Below are positions 20,238 to 32,935 of a stretch of DNA of 43,679 nt, one piece after another. Positions within the stretch are counted from its first letter, which is position 1, and every line of letters starts with the position of its first letter. The notes beneath the pieces are model-generated. The model searched no databases. It saw nothing but the letters and a program-made list of their open reading frames with translations, and was not told the origin of the DNA. The stretch comes from Halorubrum lipolyticum DSM 21995 (GTDB lineage: Archaea > Halobacteriota > Halobacteria > Halobacteriales > Haloferacaceae): the NCBI RefSeq assembly GCF_000337375.1, contig NZ_AOJG01000030.1, positions 230,804-274,482 of the forward strand. Direction: 5' to 3'. The position numbers and the translations under genes were made by a program.

Positions 20238-20402
20238 TCAGGCCGGCAGCGTGTCGATCCCGTTGATCTCGACGTAGCCGTAGCCGCACTCGGGGCAGCG
20301 CCACTTCGTCTTCTCGCCGAGGTGGAGCGTCATCGCCGCGGTCCGGTAGAACGACTGCGTCTCTCCGCACGAGGGACAGTCCACGTCCTTTTCGAGCGCC
20401 AT
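20238..20402 (-). CDS. Zinc-ribbon microprotein with two CPxCG motifs (54 aa)
   Basis: The 54-residue protein contains CPSCG (C9, C12) and CPECG (C36, C39), a perfect Cys4 zinc-ribbon layout, with a short basic middle (LHLGEKTKWR) and the ending YGYVEINGIDTLPA. Haloarchaea have many such CPxCG microproteins; one in Haloferax volcanii has been studied structurally, and phenotypes in biofilm formation and swarming are reported for the group. The role here is unknown. The ATG at 20402 is the only start giving both motifs. It lies between the convergent FAH gene and the repeat element. Confidence 0.82.
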   Translation of the reverse strand: MALEKDVDCPSCGETQSFYRTAAMTLHLGEKTKWRCPECGYGYVEINGIDTLPA

Positions 20403-20456: not shown

Positions 20457-20803
20457 GGTTGATCGTTTTTAAACCGTTACTGACGGAGCGGCGGTGAACG
20501 CCTCCAAATCCCCACCCGCAACCGCTGGAAGACGTTCCTGCTCGCTTCGCTGCGCGGGCTGCGACTTCCATGGTCCCGCTCGCTCCCTCCGGTCGCTCGC
20601 GAGACCGCAGCCTCACGCCTCCCCAGCCTCGCGGCGACCGAAGGGAGCCGCGTCCCTCGCGCGGTCGGTTCGCGGCCCTGCGGGCCGCTCACCGGCACGC
20701 AGGGAGGCGCGTCGCACCTCTTGCAGCCGGCGGCAAGCCGCCGGCGACGCCACCGCAGATTTATTTATAAATAGTCGTTTCCGTCCTCTCGATCGCTTAT
20801 AAA
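20457..20803 (-). repeat. Structured intergenic element, copy A
   Basis: Read on the minus strand, this gene-free stretch has conserved blocks: CCGCGCGAGGGA (20664-20653), GAGGCTGGGGAGGCGTGAGG (20630-20611), GGAGGGAGCGAGC (20590-20578), CGCGCAGCGA (20556-20547), TGGGGATTTGGAGG (20514-20501) and CGATCAACC (20465-20457). All recur in the same order in copy B at 30191-30573. Hairpins include 20726-20745 (9-bp arms), 20672-20688 (7-bp arms) and 20630-20635 with 20647-20652. Two TATA-like boxes lie at 20760-20774 and 20789-20803. No convincing protein is encoded; the open frames across it are low-complexity. It may be a multicopy structured RNA or a small non-autonomous mobile element. Confidence 0.7.
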
Positions 20804-20821: not shown

Positions 20822-22624
20822 CTACTTTTCGTCCACGTGCCGGACCTCGCTGGCGACGCCGCGCGTCGACTCGACCATCTCCGGGCCGGACATCTCCGCG
20901 CGGCCGACCGCGAACGCCTTCGGCCCCTCGATGACGACCTCGTCGCCGACGCGGATGTCGTCGTCCGCGTCGACGACGCCGGGCGCCAAGACGGAGCCGT
21001 GCGGGACGAACGGGTCGATCTGAACGCGCTTGGTGGGCGCGTCGCTCGCGAGCCAGCGGCGCGCGCCGGCGAGGGTAAAGGAGAGCGTGCCGTACTGCGG
21101 CACCATCGTCGCGAGCTGCTCGCCCGGCTCGCCCTCGCGGCCGGCGTCGGGGTCGTCGCCCCACACCTGTAGTTTGGGGTAGCGCCCGGTGGTCCGAATG
21201 TCGGCCTCGCCCGGCCCGCCGAACAGGTCGTCGCCCGCGCCGTCGCCGAGCAGGTAATCGGCGAGGGCGCGGACCGTGTTGTGCTCGCGCTCGCGCTTGC
21301 TGTAGGCGGGCTCGCCCTGTAAGGCGGCGTTCAGCTCCCCGAGCGACTCGTCGCTCGTCGGGTGACCGACGCAGGTGTACTCGAAGGGCACGTCGATCGC
21401 GGGGTCGCGCTCGACGCGCTCGCAGATCTCGCGGTAGCCGTCCTCGGGGACGTGCGCGACGACGCGGGAGTAGTCGGTCCGCTCCAGGTACCGGCGGAGC
21501 ACCTCGGCGACGAAGCCGATCTCGTCCTCGCTCCAGTCGCCGGTGACGACCGCGTCGTAGTGCTGTGCCGGGTAGGTCGTCTCCAGCTCCTGGGGCACCA
21601 CGCCGATCGGCGAGGTCATCGAGACGGTGTGGCCGCGCCACTGGATCGCGTCGTGGAACTGGCCGTGGCTCTGGGAGTCGCTGTACGGCTTCGTGGCCGA
21701 GCAGGGCACGAGGACGAGCGGCTGGTCGGAAAAGCGGTTCCGGTACCGGCTCGTCACCCGGTCGGCGAACCGCCGGATCTCGACGCGGTCCAGCGTCTCC
21801 GCGGTCGCCGCGGTCACCTCGGCGTCGCGCATCAGGGGCGTCCGCTGTTCGAGGTACCCCCACTGATCGTCGAACTCGCGGAACGCCGCCGTGAGCCACT
21901 GCTCGTGGCGCGTCTGCCCCTCGATGTAGTCCCGGAGGCGACCCGCCCGAACGCGCTCACGGACCCGCCGGAGCTCGGCCCGGAGCGCGTTGACGTTGTG
22001 CTCGGCGCAGTCGGCGCGCGTGAACTCCTCGCGGGGCCCCGCGCAGGCGGGACAGGCGCACGGCAGCTCGTCGAGGTCCTCGAGGAAGTGCTCAGCGTCG
22101 GCGGTGCAGTACATCCCTTCCGTCCCCTTCGTCCGCGCGAGCGTCGCGTCCACGAGGTCGACGCCGGCGTACGCGAGGAGCGCGACGTTACGGGGCGTGG
22201 CGACGCCCGACAGCGTGAGTGCGGTGTCGGCCGGGAGGGTTTCTTTCGCCGCCACGACCGCGTCGCGGAACGCCTCGCCGTGGCCGACGAACCCGGAGGC
22301 GTCCGCGAGGACGTACGCGTCGGCGCCCACGTCGCGGGCGCTCTCGCTGTCGACGACCGCGGCGGCGGGGAAGTCGGGATCGGGGTGGTCGACCGCGAAC
22401 GACTCGCGGACCTCCTCCCGGGTGCCCGCGGGAAACGCCCGGTGCGGCAGGACGGTGAGCGACGCCTCGTCGCCGTCCGGGACCTCGCGGTCGCCGGCCC
22501 AGAGGCTGCCCGCGTCCGCCAAGAACGGGTCCGCGAGCGCCGGCGTCGTCACCGGGTCGGCGAGTCGGAGCTCGCCGAGCCGGGCGGCACCGTCGCGCTC
22601 GTGGACCTCGAAGTACTCGGTCAT
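20822..22624 (-). CDS. arcS: Archaeosine synthase (TgtA2/ArcS)
   Basis: ArcS acts after TgtA on preQ0-modified tRNA at position 15 of the D-loop to form archaeosine. The 600-residue product has an N-terminal TGT-like barrel that lacks the transglycosylase catalytic residues, a Cys cluster (LPCACPACAGP) near residue 195, the ArcS-specific PCSATKPYSDSQSHGQF motif at about 305-325 and a C-terminal PUA domain (about 515-595, KRVQIDPFVPHGSVLAPGVV...KAFAVGRAEM). The ATG at 22624 starts the barrel sequence MTEYFEVHERDG; an upstream in-frame ATG at 22714 adds a basic tail and is rejected. tgtA lies one gene away on the same strand. Confidence 0.95.
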   Translation of the reverse strand: MTEYFEVHERDGAARLGELRLADPVTTPALADPFLADAGSLWAGDREVPDGDEASLTVLPHRAFPAGTREEVRESFAVDHPDPDFPAAAVVDSESARDVGADAYVLADASGFVGHGEAFRDAVVAAKETLPADTALTLSGVATPRNVALLAYAGVDLVDATLARTKGTEGMYCTADAEHFLEDLDELPCACPACAGPREEFTRADCAEHNVNALRAELRRVRERVRAGRLRDYIEGQTRHEQWLTAAFREFDDQWGYLEQRTPLMRDAEVTAATAETLDRVEIRRFADRVTSRYRNRFSDQPLVLVPCSATKPYSDSQSHGQFHDAIQWRGHTVSMTSPIGVVPQELETTYPAQHYDAVVTGDWSEDEIGFVAEVLRRYLERTDYSRVVAHVPEDGYREICERVERDPAIDVPFEYTCVGHPTSDESLGELNAALQGEPAYSKREREHNTVRALADYLLGDGAGDDLFGGPGEADIRTTGRYPKLQVWGDDPDAGREGEPGEQLATMVPQYGTLSFTLAGARRWLASDAPTKRVQIDPFVPHGSVLAPGVVDADDDIRVGDEVVIEGPKAFAVGRAEMSGPEMVESTRGVASEVRHVDEK

Positions 22625-22748
22625 ACTCCTCCTCGCGGGGGGACGGTCAATTCTCTTGTGTTCCGCGACCGCGGGGGAAGGACCCTCGTCGCCCCGCCGT
22701 CGGTCGCGCGGCACCTACTGTTTAGGTCCCCCACGCCCTACGATCCGC

Positions 22749-29636: not shown

Positions 29637-30101
29637 TCAGATCGTCGTCCGCCGCGGGTCCTCCTCGGTGAGCTGGCGGACGGTGAGCACGGGGATCGGG
29701 CACGTCCGGACGACGCGCTCGGCCACCGAGCCGATGAGGAACCGGTTCTCCCCGTGTCGCCCGCGCGTTCCCATCGCGACCACGTCGGCGTCGACCTCGC
29801 GCGCGTACCCGGAGATCTCGGGGGCGGGGCGGCCCTCCCGCACCTCAGCGGTGATGTCGAGGTCGGCGTCGCGGGCGGTCGCGGCGTCGGTCACCTGGTC
29901 GAGCGCGGCCTCGCCGTGGTCGTCGAGCGCCTCGCGGAGGTCGTCTCGGACCTCGTCCGGGGTGGACTCGACCTCGCCGCTGTCGACGACGTAGACGGCG
30001 TGGACCTCGGCGTCGAACCGCGCGGCCACGTCGACCGCGACGTCGACGGCCCGGCGGACGCTGTCGGAGCCGTCGGTCGCGACCACGATCGTGTCGAACA
30101 T
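29637..30101 (-). CDS. Universal stress protein, single domain
   Basis: The 154-residue UspA protein begins MFDTIVVATDGSDSVRRAVDVAVDVAARF and has AVYVVDS, ADVVAMGTRGRHGENRFLIGSVAERVVRTCPIPVLTV, the G-x2-G-x9-GS ATP-binding motif of the family. It is a cytoplasmic, probably dimeric nucleotide-binding protein. A GTGTTTTTAAC box on the minus strand (30125-30135) is about 25 bases before the ATG and gives a leaderless promoter. The structured element copy B begins 90 bases beyond its start. Confidence 0.92.
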   Translation of the reverse strand: MFDTIVVATDGSDSVRRAVDVAVDVAARFDAEVHAVYVVDSGEVESTPDEVRDDLREALDDHGEAALDQVTDAATARDADLDITAEVREGRPAPEISGYAREVDADVVAMGTRGRHGENRFLIGSVAERVVRTCPIPVLTVRQLTEEDPRRTTI

Positions 30102-30190: not shown

Positions 30191-30573
30191 TTTATAAGTG
30201 ATCGAAGCGGTGCGGCGGCGCGCGCCTCCGAGTAGCCGCCATCGGCGGCTACGAGGAGCGCCGCGCGAGGGAGTCGGTGGTCCGGAGCAACGCGGAGGGC
30301 CACCGACGAGGCTGGGGAGGCGTGAGGTGCGGTGCTGAGCGGTGCGGGGTGGGACTCAAAGGGGCAGTCGCCGGCGGCAACGCCGCCGGCTTCCAGAGGC
30401 GCGAAGCGCCTCGCTGCCGCGAGGACGGCGCAGGCGACGTAAGCACTGGAAGGAGCGAGCAACGCGAGCGACTGAAGCGCGCAGCGAGCGTGCGCCGTCC
30501 TCGCGGCTGGGGCTTTGGGGTGTCCGTCTCGTCACTCGCGGGATCCGTGATAGGCGCGTATAACCGATCAACC
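30191..30573 (+). repeat. Structured intergenic element, copy B
   Basis: On the plus strand the blocks are: TTTATAAGTGATCGA (30191-30205), CCGCGCGAGGGA (30261-30272), GAGGCTGGGGAGGCGTGAGG (30308-30327), GGAAGGAGCGAGC (30448-30460), CGCGCAGCGA (30478-30487), TGGGGCTTTGGGG (30508-30520) and CGATCAACC (30565-30573), the same order as copy A. Hairpins: 30232-30252 (9-bp arms, loop ATC); 30273-30283 with 30297-30307 (11 bp, one G-U); 30370-30390 (9-bp arms); 30396-30412 (7-bp arms); and a perfect 17-bp pair, 30416-30432 with 30491-30507. About 100 bases between blocks 2 and 3 are extra relative to copy A. No credible protein is present in the 517-base gap. Confidence 0.7.
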
Positions 30574-30618: not shown

Positions 30619-32241
30619 TTACGCCAGGAAGACGTGCCGCGGCCGATCCGCTAACACCTCGCGGCCCCACTGGACCGTCTCGCGGAACTCCTCGGAGCCG
30701 AAGAAGGCCATCGCGTCCTCCTTCGCGTGCCACTGGCTGGCGATGAACATGTCGTTCTCGTCTTCGACGTTCAGCATCAGGTCGGTTTCGACGTGACCGT
30801 CCATCTCCGCGAGGATCTCCCCCACGTCGTCGAACGTGTCGGTGAAGTCACCCTGGTGCTCCGGTTTGACCGTGTAGAACATCCCCATTGTGCCGAAGCC
30901 GGACTCCTCGCCGGCGCGGGCGACGACCTCCGGCAGCTCCGAGAGGAAGCCCGCCGCGGTCTCGGCCGCCGACGCCGTGTCCCAGATGGAGACGACCGCG
31001 GCGCGGTCGGTGACGCGCCCCTCGTAGACGGCCGTCTTCACGTGGGTGCCGTAGTGGTCGAAGTTGCCGCGGAGCCCCTCGACCTCGTCGAACAGCTCGT
31101 CCACGTCGGCCTCGCTGTAGAGCACGGTCGCGTACACGTCCTCGCCGCTGGGCTTCCCGGCGTAGATGTTGAGGTCCGCGAGCTCGCCGCGGATGTCGGC
31201 GTCCGAGGCGTCGTCGCCGGCTTCGCCGGTCTCCCCGCCCTCGTCGCCCGCGTGCGGGTGGTCGCCCTCCCCGCTCGCCTCCCCCTCGCCGTGGGGGTGG
31301 TCGCCGTGCGCCGATCCGCCGCCGGAGCCGGCGTGGTCGTGGCCCCCGCCGCGGCCGTGACCGTCGTCGCCCTCGCCGTGGTGGCCACCGTGGCCCTCGT
31401 CGCCGTGGTGACCGCCCTCGTCGTGCCCGTGCCCGTGCTCGCCGTCGTCCCCGCCGCCCTCCGGCGTCGGCACCGTCTCGCCCGCGAGGTACGCGCCCAG
31501 GTCCGCGGGCGGGAACCGGCGACCGATGTAGAACTCGCCGAACTCGCCGTACCGCGAGGAGGCGGGGTCGAAGCGCATCTCGTAGACGATGTCCTTGATG
31601 TCCGTCGGGTCCGAGCCGAACAGCGTGACGCCCCACTCGTGGCTGTCGAAGCCGACCGAAGAGGCGATCACCTGCTTGATCTTCCCGGCGTACTCCCGTC
31701 CCACGTCGCCGTGGTCGGCCATGAGGTCGGCGCGGTCCTCGAAGGAGAGGTCGTACCAGTTGTACTCCTCGCCGCGCCGCTTGCTCATCGGGTAGAAGCA
31801 GACGTACTCGTCGTCGGGGATCTCCGGCGTCAGCTTCCCCTCGATGTAGCGTTTGAGGCCCGCGTCGACGGACTCCGGATCCTCGAAGTACTCGTCGGAG
31901 ACGTAGCCGGAGACCTCGGTGACCGAGACGTAGGAGGTCGTGCGCTCCGTGAACGCCGCGAGCGCCGTGTCCTCGAACCGGCGCTCGATCGACGACAGGT
32001 CGTCGAGCGAGGGGCGGAAGTGGACGAACAGCAGGTCGGCCTTGTGCCCGAGCACGGAGAACAGCCCGGAGTTCCCCGCCTCTGCGTCGGCGACCAGCTC
32101 CCGGTGTTTCAGGAAGGCCTCCCCCTCCTCGATCGCCCGTTCCCGCTCTCGTTCGGGGGCGTCGCGCCACGCGTCCCAGTCGATGGACCGGAAGTCGTGC
32201 AGCGCGAACCACCCCTCCTCGGTCTGTGGTGCCTCGACCAT
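30619..32241 (-). CDS. pitA: PitA: chlorite-dismutase/HemQ-like domain fused to ABM domain
   Basis: This is a 540-residue haloarchaeal fusion. Residues 1-250 are a chlorite-dismutase-family heme domain of HemQ type: YPMSKRRGEEYNWYDL carries Y150, where coproheme decarboxylases have their catalytic Tyr, and H177 in LMADHGDVGREYAG is the likely proximal heme ligand. Residues about 261-350 are a His/Gly/Asp-rich linker. The rest is an antibiotic-biosynthesis-monooxygenase-like region (about 425-540, GMFYTVKPEHQGDFTDTFDDVGEIL). The architecture is that of Haloferax PitA. A role in heme formation or heme turnover is inferred. It is divergent from a PadR gene; the ATG at 32241 is chosen over frames reaching into the regulator. 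Confidence 0.93.
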   Translation of the reverse strand: MVEAPQTEEGWFALHDFRSIDWDAWRDAPERERERAIEEGEAFLKHRELVADAEAGNSGLFSVLGHKADLLFVHFRPSLDDLSSIERRFEDTALAAFTERTTSYVSVTEVSGYVSDEYFEDPESVDAGLKRYIEGKLTPEIPDDEYVCFYPMSKRRGEEYNWYDLSFEDRADLMADHGDVGREYAGKIKQVIASSVGFDSHEWGVTLFGSDPTDIKDIVYEMRFDPASSRYGEFGEFYIGRRFPPADLGAYLAGETVPTPEGGGDDGEHGHGHDEGGHHGDEGHGGHHGEGDDGHGRGGGHDHAGSGGGSAHGDHPHGEGEASGEGDHPHAGDEGGETGEAGDDASDADIRGELADLNIYAGKPSGEDVYATVLYSEADVDELFDEVEGLRGNFDHYGTHVKTAVYEGRVTDRAAVVSIWDTASAAETAAGFLSELPEVVARAGEESGFGTMGMFYTVKPEHQGDFTDTFDDVGEILAEMDGHVETDLMLNVEDENDMFIASQWHAKEDAMAFFGSEEFRETVQWGREVLADRPRHVFLA

Positions 32242-32370
32242 ACGCCGACTTGGGTCGCCGGGACTTAGGGGTTTGCGAGTCGCCTCAGTCGCTGGGAGCC
32301 GTCGACGCCGCATCGACCGCCCCTGCCGACGCCGAACCGCGACGCCTCGGGCCGATGTCGCGACCGAAAC

Positions 32371-32393
32371 CCTTTCACGACGACTCAGAAAGG
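32371..32393. promoter_or_regulatory. Inverted repeat CCTTTC-N11-GAAAGG before the PadR gene
   Basis: Arms at 32371-32376 and 32388-32393 are perfect 6-bp inverted repeats with an 11-base spacer, ending 8 bases before the PadR ATG at 32402. PadR dimers typically bind such spaced palindromes and often repress their own gene and a divergent neighbour, here pitA. Binding is inferred. Confidence 0.45.
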
Positions 32394-32401
32394 TAGGGAC
32401 G

Positions 32402-32935
32402 ATGCGGAAGAGCGGGCCGCCCAAGGGGCTGATCTCGTATCTCGTGTTGGAGCTGCTCGACGAGCGCCCCCGGTACGGCTACGAGCTGCTGGGCGAGATC
32501 ACGGAGATCAGCGGCGGCCACTGGGAGCCCTCGTACGGCTCCGTCTACCCGATCCTCTACAAGTTCGAGGAGGAGGGCGTCGCCGAGCGCGTCGAGCGCG
32601 CCGACGAGCCCGACCGCAAGTACTTCGCGCTCACCGACGCGGGCCGCGAGGAACTCGCCGAGAAGCGCCGCGAGATCGGCGCCGAGGCGAGGGACTTCGG
32701 CGACGTGGTGCTCGGCTTCTACCACGTGTACGCCGCGCTCGCTACCGACGGCCGCTTCGAGGTCGACGACGACGAGGGCGACTGGGCGTACTCCGAGCGC
32801 TACAGCGCGTGGATCGTCGAACAGACGATCCGCCACCACGAGCGCGACTTCGGGGAGTTCGAGCGGATCGACGCCACGCCGGAGGAGTTCTACGCGGAGG
32901 CGGCCGACGAGAGCGAGGACGACTCGGCGGAGTGA
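32402..32935 (+). CDS. PadR-family transcriptional regulator
   Basis: The 177-residue protein has the PadR winged helix at residues 8-85: GLISYLVLELLDERPRYGYELLGEI, SYGSVYPILYKFEEEGVAERV, and RKYFALTDAGREELAEKRREI. A C-terminal helical dimerisation domain ends in an acidic tail. The GSVYPIL and Y-x-LT-x-x-G motifs are PadR hallmarks. It starts 160 bases from pitA in the opposite direction, with a palindrome just before its ATG. Regulation of pitA and of itself is the simplest inference. The inducer is unknown. Confidence 0.92.
   Translation: MRKSGPPKGLISYLVLELLDERPRYGYELLGEITEISGGHWEPSYGSVYPILYKFEEEGVAERVERADEPDRKYFALTDAGREELAEKRREIGAEARDFGDVVLGFYHVYAALATDGRFEVDDDEGDWAYSERYSAWIVEQTIRHHERDFGEFERIDATPEEFYAEAADESEDDSAE

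Follow-up and report, generated by a model that had tools for sequence, protein, structure and literature searches.

The window, that is, the whole stretch of 43,679 nucleotides of Halorubrum lipolyticum DSM 21995 DNA that was analysed, carries two copies of a repeat element, each lying between protein genes (Table 1). Copy A is on the minus strand and copy B on the plus strand. In order, the element consists of a TATA-like box, the start block GCGGTGGCG, hairpin P1 with a tandem GA/GA internal loop, the linker GAGGGA, hairpin P2, a core block, a variable GC-rich lead, the block GGGACTCAAAGGGGCAG, the long hairpin P3 and the end block GGCTGGGGCTTTGGAGG. P2 ranges from 21 to >80 nt and may have extra hairpins inside it. 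The middle block GGGACTCAAAGGGGCAG is absent from copy A, and this copy therefore looks partly decayed.

Table 1. Features of the two element copies and their surroundings (positions in the window unless stated otherwise)
Feature	Position	Strand	Basis or remark
Copy B neighbour, Usp	29637-30101	-	
TATA-like box TTATAA, upstream of copy B	30192..30197	+	sequence
Copy B start block GCGGCGGCG (family consensus GCGGTGGCG)	30212..30220	+	covariance-model match 30212-30327, E 3.7e-20
Copy B hairpin P1, tandem GA/GA internal loop	30221..30266	+	fold and alignment
Copy B linker GAGGGA	30267..30272	+	P1-P2 linker conserved in copies of the same genome
Copy B hairpin P2 (hairpin under study)	30273..30307	+	11 pairs, GGA/GGA internal loop, 2 pairs, triloop
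Copy B core block GAGGCTGGGGAGGCGTGAGG	30308..30327	+	21-mer starting one base earlier has 111 matches in the same genome
Copy B block GGGACTCAAAGGGGCAG	30351..30367	+	in most copies, downstream of core
Copy B P3 region	30370..30504	+	inverted repeats and fold
Copy B P3 region, inserted hairpins, then arms	30370-30390, ~30393-30409; arms 30416-30435 / 30488-30507		
Copy B end block GGCTGGGGCTTTGGGG	30505..30520	+	in 88/95 collected copies at <=7 mismatches
Copy B neighbour, chlorite dismutase-ABM fusion	30619-32424	-	
Copy A neighbour, tRNA-guanine transglycosylase-like protein with PUA	20822-22714	-	
TATA-like box TTTATAAAT, upstream of copy A	20763..20771	-	sequence
Copy A start block GCGGTGGCG	20748..20756	-	followed by inserted hairpin 20726-20745
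Copy A hairpin P1	20659..20699	-	covariance-model match 20611-20708, E 8.4e-9; fold
Copy A linker GAGGGA	20653..20658	-	sequence
Copy A hairpin P2 (hairpin under study), inverted form of cassette CGCGGCGACCGAAGGGAGCCGC	20630..20652	-	upright form in L037
Copy A core block CGAGGCTGGGGAGGCGTGAGG	20611..20631	-	core-block match
Copy A end block	20491..20517	-	sequence
Copy A neighbour, DUF7838 small zinc protein	20241-20402	-	
MITE-enclosed copies of genome G021	170709, 222361, 233044, 260462 of the 400-kb stretch		L309-L328

The hairpin under study is P2, one apparently interchangeable part of a dispersed structured DNA/RNA element. It is flanked by two blocks common to A and B, GAGGGA and GAGGCTGGGGAGGCGTGAGG. 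The arms that a sequence-only reading had placed here, CGCGGC (20630-20635) and GCCGCG (20647-20652) in copy A, and GTCGGTGGTCC (30273-30283) and GGGCCACCGAC (30297-30307) in copy B, are exact, with one G-T pair included in copy B. Taken alone, the copy B hairpin folds better than shuffled sequence (z -2.73, 1/200 shuffles at least as good). The 38-nt hairpin segment of copy A folds at chance level when taken alone (z +0.84, 166/200 shuffles at least as good).

The end block is often trailed by tandem units of ~57 bp. These units (e.g. L003, L029, L058) have the form GGCTGGGGCTTTGGAGGTGTTCACCG...TTTATAAGCGAGC with a TATA-like motif in each, and a comparison with phage records gave no match to them. 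Two other pairings, GCGGTG/CACCGC (outer) and CTCAAAG/CTTTGGAG, are sightings by eye only and are not claimed.

Size and distribution of the repeat family

The core 21-mer has 111 matches in the H. lipolyticum genome at <=3 mismatches, 50 forward and 61 reverse; the reversed-sequence control gave 0 and 1 matches. Within the genus, 52/52 genomes are positive for the core block, with 9-195 matches per genome. In a class-wide sample the distribution is patchy: a core match is found in 69/391 genomes, distant genera among them, and a covariance-model search of a haloarchaeal class sample found 66/242 genomes positive. Named contigs with family matches are mostly from Halorubrum, with others from Haloparvum, Halobellus and Halorussus, and partial matches are found on plasmids from several haloarchaeal genera. 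That A and B are members of a dispersed structured family is near certain. The repeat, apparently a new one, was present in all Halorubrum-type genomes examined and reaches ~195 copies.

The family resembles structured RNAs in Rfam in its covarying helices, conserved unpaired blocks and tandem GA internal loops. On the other hand, no described Rfam family matches the window at gathering scores, and allowing E values up to 1 yields two chance-level hits only. Literature searches among open-licence papers, by topic and by literal block sequences, found no description of the element, and the repeat appears to be undescribed so far. A viral origin was sought in IMG/VR and phage records, and was dropped as neither has a match. 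In the same draft genome a single N is found in or beside tandem core copies at L004, L007, L009, L020, L039 and L084; the apparent tandem duplications at N-bearing copies probably arose during scaffolding of a draft rich in repeats.

Pairing, covariation and the mode of helix change

Pairing of the P2 arms was assessed with 66 distinct spacers of the H. lipolyticum genome that are long enough for 10 pairs. Watson-Crick pairs are formed at 501/660 arm positions vs 386.5 when arms are swapped between copies (z 12.1; 2,000 swaps, maximum 421). A covariance model was built from five copies, a seed of equal length, and was then used to align two copy sets; a mixed-length MAFFT alignment was unsuitable because gaps fell in stems. 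In the model alignments 97.2% of cells pair in 92 copies of the same genome and 97.1% in 82 copies of other species, vs 76.8% and 73.5% in shuffled controls and 18-51% with slid partners. Two-sided changes are present in 24 (same genome) and 25 (other species) of 27 model pairs, and the covariation scores are 0.404 and 0.442 vs 0.119 and 0.114 for shuffled alignments. Both of these alignments were made to fit the structure; independent support comes from the arm-swap test, for which no such fitting is required.

The proposal that pairing is kept while sequence changes is thus borne out well beyond chance expectation, both here and in many other genomes, and the further copies do not show the loss of pairing that would have counted against it. 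Chance pairing in GC-rich sequence, a reading to which the chance-level fold of copy A alone lends some support, is refuted by the z of 12 vs swapped arms and by the poorer pairing of shuffles and slid partners, and retains a negligible probability. The helices of the element are supported by covariation, although for P2 an exchange of hairpin cassettes can mimic covariation.

An RNA helix that changes by compensation commonly has G-U pairs and one-sided states. In the SRP RNA of 30 genomes of the genus, 14% of cells are G-U and the one-sided to two-sided ratio is 81:24. P2 has ~1% G-U cells, and its one-sided to two-sided ratios are 10:164 and 8:203 in the two alignments. The P1c helix resembles P2 in being almost purely Watson-Crick (G-U ~1%), and in P1c and P2 two-sided changes are 10-25x commoner than one-sided changes. 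The P2 helix therefore passes from one Watson-Crick state to another almost without intermediates, which suggests replacement of whole palindromes.

Strand-specific tolerance of G-U is found at other helices of the element. P1a, the outer helix of P1, resembles SRP RNA in this respect, with G-U to A-C counts of 44:3 and 53:0 in the two alignments, and the P3 closing pair is C-G in 43 copies, U-A in 16, U-G in 11 and C-A in 0. P2 does not display this tolerance: its G-U to A-C counts are 10:3 and 12:6, with no clear excess. The P1a and P2 counts were made on the model alignments, as a raw-position G-T:A-C count (20:17) is uninformative owing to register slips. The outer helices, with G-U common and A-C rare and a TATA-like box at fixed spacing, look like RNA.

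Of the sequence-only reading, which had taken the two copies as a mark of selection on structure, the conservation of pairing is upheld. The change, however, is mostly not stepwise compensation, and covariation of P2 alone is weak evidence for selection on RNA structure because exchange of whole palindromes also yields covariation. A constrained RNA is better supported by the base helices, where G-U pairs are many and A-C pairs few, by the orientation bias of the hairpins and by the promoter-like box.

Hairpin cassettes at orthologous sites

The site of copy A is occupied by the element in the same orientation in seven species, with different P2 hairpins. In comparison with the closest species, 17 sites of the H. 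lipolyticum genome are filled in the same orientation; the P2 similarity of orthologs is 0.496 vs 0.507 +/- 0.027 for random pairing, and of the 32 distinct P2 cassettes in that species, 10 have an exact counterpart in H. lipolyticum.

A second comparison involves the genomes of two other species, G021 and G048, in which N-free 400-kb stretches of single contigs were chosen to exclude misassembly. The element is present at 21/25 alignable sites and flank identity is 92.8%. Scorable ortholog pairs are few (13-20 per cassette), and among these identical cassettes are found in 1/14 pairs for P2, 1/13 for P1 and 0/20 for P3. Similarity is 0.656 vs 0.599 random (sd 0.035) for P2 and 0.721 vs 0.679 random (sd 0.023) for P1; as the similarity of orthologous cassettes is a little above the random level, turnover between these genomes is incomplete. 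The P1 and P3 hairpins behave like P2 at orthologous sites. In some ortholog pairs one cassette is kept and the others differ, and in one pair P1 and P2 are identical and P3 is inverted. Where two copies share the same P2, their P1 hairpins are also a little more alike (0.689 vs 0.592), which is not the case for P3 (0.623 vs 0.611).

Identical cassettes are found again at other sites and in other species. Orthologs with different cassettes, together with exact cassettes in other genomes, lead to the conclusion that turnover is by cassette and partly complete, with cassettes drawn from a shared repertoire. Misjoining of hairpin modules in draft genomes might give such a picture, and the H. lipolyticum draft assembly consists of 41 contigs, several of its element copies containing N; yet the pattern is also found in N-free stretches of single 3.0 and 2.8 Mb contigs, and an assembly artefact is very improbable.

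These orthologous sites also bear on divergence of P2 by stepwise compensatory substitution in an ordinary structured RNA family, as the sequence-only reading implied. Strong covariation in two copy sets is consistent with this, as are families of 35-nt P2 hairpins whose members differ by single paired changes. It does not account for different P2 types at orthologous sites whose flanks are ~93% identical, for the recurrence of identical cassettes in other species and at unrelated sites, or for the scarcity of G-U and one-sided states relative to SRP RNA. This alternative is already disfavoured and must be considered quite unlikely. Exchange of hairpin cassettes is likely; each hairpin, a near-perfect palindrome, is probably replaced as a unit and not remodelled pair by pair.

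Inverted cassettes other than that of copy A are present at L003 and L029 (P2) and at L052 (P3). Among classifiable copies, upright and inverted forms number 108:2 for P2 and 184:2 for P3, the short cassette of copy A belonging to an unclassified group in this count. The upright bias fits a strand-specific role, or rare inversion.

The likeliest route of exchange is ectopic gene conversion in which the conserved blocks (~6-20 bp) would serve as homology. It is suggested by the efficient intermolecular gene conversion documented in polyploid haloarchaea (PMC8223754, PMC11276520). Exchange of whole palindromes between copies, as opposed to compensatory mutation, represents a route to RNA-like covariation and calls for caution when covariation statistics are applied to repeat families. 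In addition, the element provides natural sites at which ectopic recombination in polyploid haloarchaea could be measured.

Spread, promoter-like box and related repeats

Presence or absence at orthologous sites points to mobility. Four sites are filled in G021 and lack the element in G048, and further sites display the reverse. The four G021-only copies (Table 1) sit in 590-660 bp MITEs with IS5-type ends like GGCTCTGTTGAAATCC; terminal inverted repeats shared with an IS are found in 4 G021 copies and 1 G048 copy. In H. lipolyticum 0/95 copies passed the test for IS5-type ends, and ~20 copies keep the subterminal motifs GATAGCGGGAGTGGGTAT / ATACCTACTCCCGCTATC, repeats that are also present in the G021 MITEs. 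The MITE flanks examined have no consistent target-site duplication. The H. lipolyticum genome has an IS5-family element encoding a DDE_Tnp_1 transposase, with an end that matches the MITE ends (L354 1591-3016, contig C39 63751-65372); it is related to ISHxa2-type elements in other haloarchaea. MITEs probably explain part of the element's spread.

The sequence TTATAA is found <=34 nt upstream of the element start in 56/80 copies of the H. lipolyticum genome vs 1% of background windows, and 45/56 of these boxes begin 22-24 nt before the first base of P1 (P1a). Haloarchaeal TATA boxes lie ~26 nt before the transcription start (PMC8707807), and this distance, combined with the TTATAA spacing, would place the start of a transcript at P1 or slightly within it. 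The chances of an RNA-level role of the element are slightly better than even.

We favour, with moderate confidence, the interpretation that the hairpin under study, P2, belongs to a dispersed structured-RNA element which is probably transcribed and whose cassettes are exchanged between copies at fixed sites. According to this proposal, hairpins P1, P2 and P3 are interspersed with conserved blocks in Halorubrum and certain other haloarchaea; copies would have spread initially in part inside IS5-type MITEs and then stayed at fixed sites, where the hairpins would act as interchangeable, near-perfect palindromic cassettes swapped singly between copies. The computational evidence consists of the family, its covariation, orthologous occupancy with different hairpins, occasional inversion and the spacing of the promoter-like box; from it we infer transcription, an RNA function, and the mechanism and rate of exchange.

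A parasitic origin is possible, if doubtful: a MITE-derived repeat with no RNA role, in which template switching between arms, conversion of one arm by the other or processing of cruciforms would maintain the pairing in the DNA itself. The nearly complete Watson-Crick pairing and predominance of two-sided changes in P1c and P2, the inversions between arms and the MITE ends of some copies all agree with DNA palindromes. So does the gene 3' of the element, antiparallel in 42/62 copies (G021 and G048 stretches; crude GC3-based gene call), as expected if insertions behind genes survive best. Palindromes of this kind would not be expected to favour G-U over A-C in a strand-specific manner at P1a and the P3 closing pair, nor to have a strong hairpin orientation bias, a fixed promoter-like spacing or long conserved unpaired blocks.

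A more far-reaching form of the RNA interpretation envisages ~100 promoter-bearing RNA loci with a constant scaffold, whose hairpin domains would be reshuffled between loci, each independently, and inverted in place. This is rather unlikely; if true, genome-wide exchange of hairpin cassettes would maintain diversity among the structured RNAs of each genome.

The element has likenesses to several known repeats. Prokaryotic MITEs mobilised by IS5-family transposases (PMC10969869) compare with the minority of copies in 590-660 bp units with ISHxa2-like ends; unlike these MITEs, most copies have no such ends and the structured core occurs alone. The intergenic repeats of halovirus HF2, 56-58 bp in length and shown to be promoters, are also from a Halorubrum system and have a TATA-like motif, but they are without hairpin cassettes, and the element has no nucleotide match to phage records (PMC8707807 for the HF2 repeats).

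The element displays, like REP/BIME, a mosaic of palindromes and linkers in many intergenic copies. In the REP/BIME mosaics of enterobacteria, palindromes are joined by linkers and the REP palindrome is the conserved part; here the palindromes vary and the linkers are conserved, and there is no conserved palindromic unit. BOX elements vary in their number of boxB modules. By description, the BOX repeats of Streptococcus pneumoniae are similar in being modular, intergenic, present at ~100 per genome, predicted to form RNA secondary structure, enriched between convergent genes and probably mobilised in trans (PMC3049150). In contrast to BOX, hairpins unrelated in sequence replace one another here between constant blocks, at fixed sites and beside a promoter-like box.
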